Below are positions 45,342-51,213 of a stretch of DNA of 54,824 nt, piece by piece. How positions within the stretch are numbered: the first letter of the stretch is position 1; every line of letters starts with the position of its first letter. The notes below the pieces were generated by a model that saw only the letters and a program-made list of their open reading frames with translations, ran no database searches and was not told the DNA's origin. This stretch comes from Marivita sp. XM-24bin2 (lineage in GTDB: Bacteria > Pseudomonadota > Alphaproteobacteria > Rhodobacterales > Rhodobacteraceae). Both the position numbers and the translations under genes were made by a program. The DNA lies in contig QCWH01000015.1 of assembly GCA_003149565.1 (NCBI GenBank), positions 1 through 54,824 on the forward strand, read 5' to 3'.

Positions 45342-45401
45342 ACACCCCAAGCCGAGGTGCGGGGATTGCAACCCCCCAGCGCCGCCGCTAGTCCTCTGCG
45401 C

Positions 45402-46334
45402 ATGAAAATCGTGCGGGATTATCAATTCGTCTCCGAAGGAGATAAGGGCGCCACAGTTGCCATCGGCAATTTTGACGGTGTTCATTCCGGGCATCAAGCG
45501 GTCATTCAGATCGCCCGCGAAGCGATGCCCGAGGCGCCTTTGGGCGTTGTCACGTTTGAACCGCATCCCCGCGAATATTTTGCTCCCGATGCCCCGCCCT
45601 TTCGGCTGATGAACGCAACTGCACGGGCAACGCGGTTGCGCAAGCTCGGGGTCGATGTGCTTTACGAACTGAACTTCAACACGCAATTGGCCGAACTGAC
45701 GCCCGAGGGGTTCGCTGCGAACGTCATCTCAAACGGGCTCGGCCTGCGCCATGTTGTGGTCGGTGAGGATTTCTGTTTCGGAAAAGGTCGCACGGGAAAC
45801 GTGGATGACCTGAAGATTTTTGGCGAAAGAATGGGCTTTGGAGTGACCGTGGCTGAACTGATCACGTCTGCGTCGGGGGCGGTCTCCTCGACCGCCATTC
45901 GCACCGCACTGAGCGAAGGCGCACCTCGGCGCGCGGCGGAAATGCTGGGCCATTGGCACCGCATTGAGGGCGCGGTCATCGGCGGCGAACAGCGCGGGCG
46001 CGAGCTGGGATACCCCACAGCCAACATGTCCATCGATGGGCTGCATCCACCGAAATTCGGCGTCTATGCCGTGCTGGTCGATGTGCTCGACGGGCCGCAT
46101 GCCGGGTCGTATCACGGAGCGTCCTCGATTGGGGTACGCCCGATGTTCGGGGAAAACCGCGCCAACCTGGAGACCTTCCTGTTTGACTTCACAGGCGATC
46201 TTTACGGTGCGACAGTCTCGGTCGCGCTGGTTGATTTCCTGCGGCCCGAGTTGAAATTCGACAGTCTTGACGCGTTGATCACGCAGATGGATGCCGACTG
46301 CGCTGAGGCACGCGCGATCCTGTCCGCGCTATGA
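45402..46334 (+). CDS. ribF: Bifunctional riboflavin kinase/FAD synthetase
   Basis: 310-residue enzyme making FMN then FAD. The N-terminal adenylyltransferase domain has GNFDGVHSGHQ at about 23-33. The C-terminal riboflavin kinase domain has GRELGYPTANM. I chose ATG 45402 (MKIVRDYQF). The frame extends upstream without family content. It overlaps the YcgN-like gene by ATGA. Confidence 0.96.
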   Translation: MKIVRDYQFVSEGDKGATVAIGNFDGVHSGHQAVIQIAREAMPEAPLGVVTFEPHPREYFAPDAPPFRLMNATARATRLRKLGVDVLYELNFNTQLAELTPEGFAANVISNGLGLRHVVVGEDFCFGKGRTGNVDDLKIFGERMGFGVTVAELITSASGAVSSTAIRTALSEGAPRRAAEMLGHWHRIEGAVIGGEQRGRELGYPTANMSIDGLHPPKFGVYAVLVDVLDGPHAGSYHGASSIGVRPMFGENRANLETFLFDFTGDLYGATVSVALVDFLRPELKFDSLDALITQMDADCAEARAILSAL

Positions 46335-49162: not shown

Positions 49163-50377
49163 CTAGCCTTCGGGATAAGCTGTCGACAGTACCCTCAATG
49201 CCCGGTCGATCAAGGCGTCATCGGTTAGCACTGAAAGATCGCGCGCTGGACCGGCCCCATTGAAACCAAGGAGAATCGGTGCATCGAGCACAGGGGCAAG
49301 GTTAAGCCATTGGTTGAACTGACCCGGTGGCAGCCCCGTTTCCGGCGTCAGAATCCATGTGGTCTCTGCATCCCAGAACACGGTGTCAAACCGCAGGTAA
49401 AGCTTGTCCAGAAGGCCAAAGCCCAGACGGCGGATCGCAGTGTCCTTGTCTTTGGGCAAGGCGGGCGTAAAGGCGACGCGCTGCGCTTTCAGCACGCCCA
49501 GCGGCACGGTGACGATGACAGCGTCGAACCGGCCAAGATCGCCATTGGACGAACCAAGCTGCACGCCGTCATCCATCAGCGACACGCGACGGATTTCGGT
49601 GCCAAGGCGGATGTCCAGATCGCTGTCACCCTGTCCCAGGATCTGCGCATAGCCCCCAGGGAAGAGCAGATCCTTTCCCCCGTAATCGGGATCATCCTCG
49701 TATGCCTGCCAGTTGATGTCTCTCGTGCTGGCACCGTAGTCCTGCTGGATCGCGACCACGTCTTCAAACCAGTACGGCAGATCGCGATATCGCAGCCTGC
49801 GTCCCCCGGCGCCGCGCAACACGTAGTCATCACCGGTCGGTTCACTGGACATGCCGTGATCTGCCGCGAGCGCAACAAGTGGGTTGCCGTCGTCGCCATG
49901 CAGCCAGCTTGCCCCCAGATCGAGCGGGTGACCAAGGCTGGTGTCGGTCCAAATCCGCCCGCCGAGGCGGTTGCGCGCCTCAAAGAGCGTGACAGTGGCC
50001 CCTGTTTCGGCAAGGCGGCGCGCGGCGGTCAGACCGCTGATTCCGCCACCGATGATCGCCACGGTGCCTGCATCGGTTTGGCCGACGGCCTCCGCCACGT
50101 CCAGACCGGTTTCATAGGCCGCATGGACCGTGCTGTTATACGCGGGGTGGGTCGCCTCACCAGCGAAGTAGAGGCGATTTGCAACCGGATGCGAAAGAGC
50201 GTGGGTGTCGGCGCGCGAGGCGGCGCGCGCGATGTAGGAGTAGGACCCAAGGCTGAAGGGATCGCGACTCCAGTTGGTGCGCAGATAGCCTGTCGGTGCG
50301 CGCGCGGTTTGCGCTGCGGATGCGCAAGGCATCAGCAGGGCGGCAGTGGCGAGCGAGAGGATCTGTCGACGGTGCAT
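49163..50377 (-). CDS. Flavin-containing amine oxidase with circularly permuted domain order
   Basis: 404-residue FAD protein. It starts with an Arg-Arg signal peptide (2-22, possibly Tat). The region that normally ends amine oxidases then comes first: TNWSRDPFSLGSYSY (34-48) and RLYFAGEATHPAYNSTVHAAY (69-89). Only after these comes the dinucleotide-binding GGGISGLTAARR motif (110-121) and FEARNRLGGRIW (132-143) that normally start the protein. It ends RVLSTAYPEG, where the ordinary protein would continue into the TNW segment. I chose ATG 50377. A longer frame from 50482 runs through palindromic element C. Confidence 0.87.
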   Translation of the reverse strand: MHRRQILSLATAALLMPCASAAQTARAPTGYLRTNWSRDPFSLGSYSYIARAASRADTHALSHPVANRLYFAGEATHPAYNSTVHAAYETGLDVAEAVGQTDAGTVAIIGGGISGLTAARRLAETGATVTLFEARNRLGGRIWTDTSLGHPLDLGASWLHGDDGNPLVALAADHGMSSEPTGDDYVLRGAGGRRLRYRDLPYWFEDVVAIQQDYGASTRDINWQAYEDDPDYGGKDLLFPGGYAQILGQGDSDLDIRLGTEIRRVSLMDDGVQLGSSNGDLGRFDAVIVTVPLGVLKAQRVAFTPALPKDKDTAIRRLGFGLLDKLYLRFDTVFWDAETTWILTPETGLPPGQFNQWLNLAPVLDAPILLGFNGAGPARDLSVLTDDALIDRALRVLSTAYPEG

Positions 50378-50442: not shown

Positions 50443-50544
50443 GGCGCGCACCGTGTGGTGTGACGGGCATGAAGGGGGCCAATTCCTGCCATTTTGAGGG
50501 GGTACCCTCTGCCTTCTACGCCACGTGAAAGGGCTCTGGCCGGC

Positions 50545-51213
50545 ATGTTTGATGAAGGCACCAAGATTGCGGTTTTTGGCATTGTTCTGGCGGCGTGGGT
50601 CTTTGGCCTGAGCGCTGACAAGACTGCGCCGCGTCCTGATCTGGCCACCGCCGTGGACCAAGCGCTGCTTCCTGCCGTTCCGCTGACAGCGGCGTCCGAT
50701 GGCGCGCCGGCGCAAAGCCGTTTGTCGGGAAGGCAGGTTGCCTTGGGCGACGGGTTTCAAGCCAAACTGTTGGCCAGTTACGTCCTTGAGGGACGTGTCG
50801 TGACCCGCCGGGAGTTTCGCAATGACGCGACCAGCGCGGTTTCACCGTTGGATCTGGGCATTGTCTGGGGGGATCTGGCAGCCCCCGGGGGCACCGATGG
50901 CTTGGCGTTCCGCACCGGACACCGGAGCATCTGGTTTTCGAACTCCCCAGAGGCCGATTTGCCGAAACGGTGGAAAGAGCAGGTCACCAACAATCATCTG
51001 GTCCCCGCCAACCGCCAGGTGAACGACGCCCTGATGGCGATCGGCATCGGAGAGCGGGTCAGGTTGCGGGGGTATCTGGTGACAGTCACCGGCAATGGAA
51101 CCTTGCCGTGGCGGTCTTCGACGCGGCGGGATGACGGGTCCATCGTCGGAGGCTGCGAGATCATTCTGGTGACGGATGTGCAGGTGTTGCCTGCCGATGC
51201 CGGTGCCGCCTGA
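50545..51213 (+). CDS. Conserved-type hypothetical membrane-anchored protein
   Basis: 222 residues with an N-terminal hydrophobic anchor (about 7-24, KIAVFGIVLAAWVFGLSA) and a probably periplasmic remainder. The C-terminal part has GERVRLRGYLVTVTG, then WRSSTRRDDGSIVGGCEIILVTDVQVL, reminiscent of a beta-barrel nucleic-acid or ligand fold, but I do not recognise the family. I chose ATG 50545, though no strong ribosome site is visible. It is convergent with lolA. Confidence 0.75.
   Translation: MFDEGTKIAVFGIVLAAWVFGLSADKTAPRPDLATAVDQALLPAVPLTAASDGAPAQSRLSGRQVALGDGFQAKLLASYVLEGRVVTRREFRNDATSAVSPLDLGIVWGDLAAPGGTDGLAFRTGHRSIWFSNSPEADLPKRWKEQVTNNHLVPANRQVNDALMAIGIGERVRLRGYLVTVTGNGTLPWRSSTRRDDGSIVGGCEIILVTDVQVLPADAGAA

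Follow-up and report, generated by a model that had tools for sequence, protein, structure and literature searches.

The permuted gene

On the minus strand of the window, by which we mean the whole 54,824-nucleotide stretch of DNA under analysis, one open frame runs from an ATG at 50377 to a stop that ends at 49163, and its translation is a flavin amine oxidase of 404 amino acids in which the C-terminal block comes first (49163-50377). MAO, LSD1 and the polyamine oxidases are all flavin amine oxidoreductases. The protein begins with a twin-arginine-like signal, MHRRQILSLATAALL..., and by motif reading the signal peptide region of this type covers residues 1-26 (MHRRQILSLATAALLMPCASAAQTAR; 50300-50377, minus strand). 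Residues 31-99 (YLRTNWSRDPFSLGSYSY...YFAGEATHPAYNSTVHAAYETGLDVAEAVG; 50081-50287, minus strand) are the relocated C-terminal block, which aligns with residues 572-654 of LSD1, close to where the linear domain ends, and also with the C-termini of linear relatives. The old C- and N-termini meet at residues 100-104 (50066-50080, minus strand), a junction placed by the spacing from VHAA to GxG, and the FAD-binding N-terminal block follows at residues 105-200 (TVAIIGGGISGL...EARNRLGGR...GASWLHG; 49778-50065, minus strand), with an NAD_binding_8 match at 3.8e-17. The middle block, residues 201-404 (49166-49777, minus strand), is recognized by the conservation of K325 and holds both the lysine segment GFGLLDK325LYLRF and the new C-terminus, STAYPEG. 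Read along the chain, TNWSRDPFSLGSYSY (residues 34-48) and YFAGEATHPAYNSTVHAAY (residues 70-88) both precede the AIIGGGISGL region (GGGISGL at 110-116), after which come the middle and then the lysine segment, and the protein ends in RVLSTAYPEG. The first-pass annotation had given these coordinates, a C-terminal block ahead of GGGISGL and this same ending, all of which are borne out by the translation and by the matches to PF01593 and LSD1.

The oxidase matches PF01593 at an E-value of 3e-66 and 225 bits (the Pfam cut-off is 19.8), with the match split into three stretches, and all 34 aligned permuted members match the same family at E 0.001. The linear block order, with the Rossmann piece N-terminal and the GEAT and VH motifs C-terminal, is absent from the window gene and from 46 further genes. 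By its sequence the oxidase is a permuted variant of the PF01593 superfamily and not an ordinary member. Where annotation splits PF01593 into pieces, a rearrangement common to dozens of genomes can go unnoticed.

Continuity across the break

When the native protein is compared with LSD1 (2hko), the matching pieces are themselves permuted: query residues 103-175 fall on 107-179, 218-399 on 375-562, and 28-98 on 572-654, the last of these being marginal when taken alone (i-Evalue 0.0021). We rotated the chain by moving residues 26-104 behind residue 404, and LSD1 375-652 is then matched in one piece at 106.5 bits; in native order the two pieces reach 71.6 and 20.6 bits separately. Against PF01593, residues 116-373 of the rotated chain cover profile positions 180-442 of 443 in a single stretch, lifting the total from 225 to 246.9 bits; the Rossmann piece remains a separate match after rotation. 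The linear relative L045 matches the profile from 1 to 443 in a single stretch.

The same behaviour extends across the family. Scored with an HMM built from linear relatives, rotation raises the best single-domain score in 41 of 41 permuted rows (five of them repeats, L088-L092), the median moving from 137.1 to 215.9 bits and the ranges, 125.6-154.2 native and 197.9-245.0 rotated, having no overlap. Of 50 linear sequences, 32 went into this HMM; a motif filter removed 16, among them the closest, L045 and L046, and the other two, L063 and L077, have no Rossmann motif. A head-to-tail alignment, which had been put forward as a check on the permutation, comes out differently according to how it is made. 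With the simple duplicate, the best single-domain score against the linear HMM has a median of 137.5 bits (maximum 203.6), no gain over the native 137.1, whereas the clean rotation gives the continuous match described above. We think that the duplicate fails to gain because the signal peptide sits at its junction; only the clean rotation brings out the continuity. All blocks are present once and rotation restores colinearity through the break, which on this sequence-level measure is a circular permutation; the first-pass reading of a real permutation with each block present once is thereby supported.

Distribution of the permuted family

In a scan of public genomes, in which the best 80 of 114 candidate loci were kept and blocks were placed by tblastn, the order C-N-M of the window is found in 38 of the best 80 loci (L008-L044 and L065; the last block of L037 is cut by a contig end). 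The ordinary order, with the C-block last, is found in 41 of the same best 80 of 114 (L045-L064 and L066-L086), including eight loci in which only two of the three blocks were placed (L068, L070, L072, L077, L078, L080, L083, L084). At the one remaining locus of these 80, L087, a contig end cuts the locus after the C-block and the order is unreadable. Judged by these block placements, the permuted order is far beyond chance, because all three blocks are so arranged at the 38 loci.

Sampling of related genomes places the family more narrowly. A full-length permuted match is present in 7 of 61 related genomes: 6 of 17 from the genus, including the window's own genome, 1 of 20 from other members of the family and 0 of 24 from other members of the class. 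A draw of 295 genomes from the family yields 15 with a match at 1e-50, the window's own among them, and the other 14 are all permuted; in a draw of 398 genomes from the phylum, the only three with a match at 1e-40 belong to the window's family. With repeat genes recognized by the identity of central 300-base stretches, there are eight new permuted genes beyond the 38 public loci (L093, L115, L117, L119, L120, L122, L124 and L125), which brings the distinct permuted genes to 47 including the window, or 48 if the cut locus L087 is counted. The 46 others are 37-78% identical to the window protein over the best segment or match. Four same-genus loci, L088, L089, L091 and L092, include central stretches that are identical to named Marivita records, which makes Marivita the very probable genus. 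On the genomes sampled, the permuted family is found mainly in Rhodobacterales, and the homologue check proposed in the first pass places the permuted order in a conserved family, not a local oddity. Plasmid records give 219 with a match and none that covers 80% of the query.

Several members deserve mention on their own account. L124 (47% identity) and L125 (37%) are divergent permuted members within the window's family, with the variant motifs ITRWRHDP and RSAWWDDS. L022, L042 and L044 are permuted relatives with interrupted frames, from decay or from sequencing errors in metagenome-assembled genomes (MAGs). Three permuted members lie outside Alphaproteobacteria: L028 and L031, in Opitutaceae MAGs, and L043, in an Acidimicrobiaceae MAG. 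Sample IP29b is the source of L028 and L031 as well as of the alphaproteobacterial L024, L026, L027 and L029, and L028 and L031 nest among alphaproteobacterial members. All three outliers suggest transfer or mis-binning.

Conservation and selection

Across the 34-row alignment, which omits loci with interrupted frames (L022, L042, L044), those at contig ends (L037, L087) and L043, the residues of the FAD-binding block G110, G112, G115, E133, R135, G139, G140, R141, W158 and H160 are invariant in all 34 rows. So are K325 and, in the relocated block, N35, W36, D39, P40, G44, Y46, S47, G73, E74, V84 and H85. Two motif positions vary: Y48 of the GSYSY motif is tyrosine in 23 of 34, and T83 is threonine in 30 of 34. 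K325 is aligned with the lysine of GFGNLNK in LSD1, which we take to be the catalytic lysine near flavin N5. In comparisons of the window with five congeners, dN/dS lies at about 0.09-0.12 in the C-block, against 0.13-0.16 in residues 105-404, and both blocks are under purifying selection; the signal region, at about 0.18-0.68 in the same comparisons, evolves faster than either block. This pattern points to a maintained and probably active enzyme family.

Probable single origin of the permutation

We built two trees with the blocks set in linear order. In the first, the 36 permuted rows of 83 fall on one side of a branch with support 95/96 that is recovered in 94% of bootstrap trees; in the second, which holds more diverse members, the 43 permuted rows of 68 do so with support 95/97 and in 96% of bootstrap trees. 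The first tree includes 47 of 50 linear rows (L063, L077 and L096 were dropped) and the second 25 hand-chosen linear rows; both omit L022, L042, L044, L037 and L087 and include L043. The permuted group is nested in a supported group (100/99 and 100/97) together with linear LSD- and polyamine-oxidase-like proteins from Chloroflexota, Myxococcota, Spirochaetota, Verrucomicrobiota and other Pseudomonadota. Because linear order lies on all sides in these trees, whose root is a midpoint only, the permuted order appears to be the derived state, and a single origin is the simplest reading.

The sequence itself shows that the old C-terminal block, which carries the last helix along with the NW..DP/GSYSY, GEAT and VH motifs, has moved ahead of the Rossmann block, that the old termini are joined through a few residues, and that new termini opened in the loop that leads from the last helix of the middle block to the TNW strand. 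A duplication or fusion whose outer parts were later lost is the probable route to this arrangement. How the permutation originated can be studied with the linear sister sequences. Among six linear regions (G052, G020 and four more) we found no permutation intermediate, each region having one set of blocks; isolated weak extra pieces, at E 0.046-0.064, occur in L109, L110 and L111. In G052 and G020, hits that contain an internal stop had the look of two genes head to tail and were candidates for tandem-duplication intermediates, but they were rejected as read-through past the end of the gene.

Junction, termini and predicted fold

Between VHAA and GxGxxG lie 22 residues in 31 of 34 permuted members. 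Linear relatives continue for 12-18 residues after VHGA (in the 10 rows measured, of 12), and the shortest linear N-termini have 6-7 residues ahead of GxG (L052, L057, L060), so the joining of the old termini added at most about 4 residues. The new termini map to the loop DEIPEPVG of linear L045, between helix 327-342 and strand 351-354, and the break in the permuted model lies correspondingly between the last helix (386-400) and strand 30-35. The permuted protein is also more compact: from the GASW tryptophan to the FPxGY glycine there are 84 residues (158 to 242), compared with 131 in L045 (55 to 186), so that, set against linear L045, the substrate domain lacks about 47 residues, the deficit lying in the stretch after the Rossmann piece. 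Such a shortened domain could mean altered chemistry.

AlphaFold models the permuted protein as a monomer, from 34 permuted sequences, at pLDDT 88.1 and pTM 0.87, with residues 1-23 the only stretch below 50; the linear control L045, from 12 sequences, is modelled at pLDDT 92.1 and pTM 0.91. The C-terminal elements of L045 (strand 351-354, strand 367-369, helix 376-383, strand 390-392, helix 405-419) have N-terminal counterparts in the permuted model in the same order (strand 30-35, strand 46-48, helix 55-62, strand 69-71, helix 84-99). LSD2 and LSD1 are the best Foldseek matches of both models. With this sequential aligner the permuted model reaches a TM-score of 0.66 at rmsd 5.0 and L045 0.93 at rmsd 2.2; an aligner of this kind is expected to lose a moved block, and the 0.66 is what a permutation predicts for these models, not proof of it. 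Together with FAD, the permuted chain would take the ordinary amine oxidase fold.

Export and gene neighbourhood

The N-terminus has the twin-arginine motif and hydrophobic stretch of a Tat substrate. All 39 homologue rows scanned, which represent 34 distinct genes, have an RR pair 31-39 residues before the NW motif, and by eye L115, L117, L119, L120, L122, L124 and L125 have it too. Start codons were picked adjoining the RR pair (by hand in L024 and L065), which makes the invariance of M1 one of construction. L043 has an RR pair followed by a lipobox-like LGC. The folded protein would be exported by the Tat pathway, and by this motif it reads as a likely Tat-exported periplasmic amine oxidase. 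The first-pass annotation had proposed that a signal sequence was placed at the new N-terminus. The signal is indeed there, but it need not be new, since 8 of 17 linear relatives from the same tree group (L045-L049, L053, L056, L082) carry RR-type or lipobox signals by eye; for this reason export may be older than the permutation, the signal having been kept rather than newly gained.

By Pfam, the neighbours in the window are an SLT transglycosylase, a YccV-like protein, LolA, FtsK, a beta-eliminating lyase and an FAD synthetase/riboflavin kinase, with one neighbour that matches no family; these seven give no hint of the substrate, and none matches a cytochrome c family in Pfam. Of the 30 largest ORF clusters, those outside the gene occur solely in the window and the five congeneric loci, apart from three that Erythrobacter L036 has as well, and no operon partner was identified among these 30; the neighbours are conserved mainly within the genus. 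The FAD synthetase/riboflavin kinase gene (45357-46334, plus strand) lies about 3 kb from the flavoenzyme, probably by coincidence. A divergent ORF of up to 239 amino acids without a Pfam match (50494-51213, plus strand) begins about 116 bases from the oxidase start.

Function and alternative readings

Taken as a whole, we consider it likely that the window encodes a naturally permuted PF01593 enzyme with the ordinary fold, FAD, Tat export and a role in periplasmic amine oxidation. In the periplasm, FAD would take up a hydride as the C-N bond of an amine is oxidized, and the conserved lysine would sit close to the flavin. Where the electrons then go is the point on which the most serious alternative turns. 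NicA2 and Pnao also have Tat signals and, according to sections of PMC12224317, use a neighbouring cytochrome c; a Tat-type signal of the same sort would suit a permuted protein that is a dehydrogenase and passes electrons to a periplasmic cytochrome c or another acceptor encoded elsewhere, and the same sections describe one Tat flavin amine oxidase (FAO) that has no cytochrome c gene nearby and is slow with O2. Most of the tested FAOs in those sections that have a Tat signal and no adjacent cytochrome c are, however, fast with O2 and hence oxidases, although that sample was drawn from NicA2-related sequences and not from the LSD-like group considered here (PMC12224317). In our own loci, 49 of 51 have no CxxCH ORF of at least 80 amino acids in their flanks, as scanned up to 1.5-3 kb per side (shorter at contig ends) with six repeats included and the window and L093 set aside. 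The two exceptions are L065, where the ORF lies at the locus end and looks by eye like a cytochrome oxidase subunit, and L120, where it is uncharacterized. From the oxidase behaviour of most such FAOs and the 49 loci we infer a periplasmic oxidase, and by this weak analogy we lean slightly towards O2 as the electron acceptor; a dehydrogenase like NicA2 and Pnao seems rather unlikely, if still worth keeping in mind.

The other alternatives are weaker. Catalysis might have been lost, leaving a family of FAD-binding or regulatory proteins, as the absence of about 47 substrate-domain residues relative to linear L045 and the tyrosine at position 48 of GSYSY in only 23 of 34 members could suggest; this is improbable in view of the invariance, in all 34, of Lys325, GxGxxG, E133/R135/G139-G140-R141, NW..DP and V84/H85. 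A domain swap, with the relocated block completing the FAD site of a neighbouring chain, would be compatible with the sequence, and the AlphaFold model is of a monomer only. That monomer model is confident, though, and the block leads into the Rossmann strand at the natural terminus through no more than about 4 added residues, so that we rate a swap as very improbable. The window does come from a draft genome in 116 contigs, where an assembly error or a chance fusion of two amine oxidase gene fragments might be feared; with the permuted order present in 46 other genes in other assemblies, 37-78% identical, and purifying selection on both blocks, the chance of this is negligible, and the concern of the first pass that two genes had been joined in error falls away. 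The preferred reading can also be taken further. Permutation and the loss of about 47 residues together might have produced a distinct periplasmic LSD-like oxidase whose active site is more open and whose substrates are large amines or amines bound to polymers, such as the lysine side chains of peptides. The reordered chain would then be functionally required, for example for folding behind a Tat signal; we regard this extension as speculative and unlikely.

Relation to known systems

LSD1 and LSD2 (KDM1A and KDM1B) are the nearest structures, LSD1 (2hko) being the best PDB sequence match at 3e-40 and LSD2 (4hsu) the best fold match, and the lysine segment, the FAD motifs, W..DP, GSYSY and TVH are common to both and to the window protein. 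Unlike them, the window protein is permuted, has no SWIRM among its Pfam matches, is bacterial and apparently exported, and has a reduced substrate domain. Linear bacterial FAOs such as L045 (Anaerolineales), L046 (Aliiglaciecola) and L047 (Myxococcales) are 33-39% identical over the best segment and share its tree group and motifs, but have the order N-M-C and, in L045, a substrate domain about 47 residues longer. Plant polyamine oxidase and mammalian spermine oxidase belong to the same superfamily (1b37 and 7oxl, matched at 7.6e-23 and 2.1e-37), from which the window protein differs in block order, export and compactness. NicA2 and Pnao resemble it as bacterial FAOs with a twin-arginine signal, but theirs is accompanied by an adjacent cytochrome c gene, and the string 'permut' has no occurrence in the main text of PMC12224317.

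Circular permutation as such is already well known, and the abstract of PMC3503759, for one, calls it a common mechanism. In titles and abstract openings of the open-access literature we found no report of a permuted amine oxidase, an absence that is not proof, and in the part of PMC4432964 consulted permutation is mentioned only in the title of an unrelated reference. What we describe is a flavin amine oxidase in which a natural circular permutation, probably of single origin, has been conserved. A conserved natural permutation is a ready folding experiment, in which FAD binding and catalysis can be set against chain order, and a permuted amine oxidase is also a scaffold for engineering. A further observation concerns the linear relatives L045-L058, L060, L061 and L082, of which the L045 model matches LSD2 at TM 0.93 with 33% identity in the Foldseek alignment; this linear group may be of relevance to the bacterial ancestry of LSD-type demethylases.
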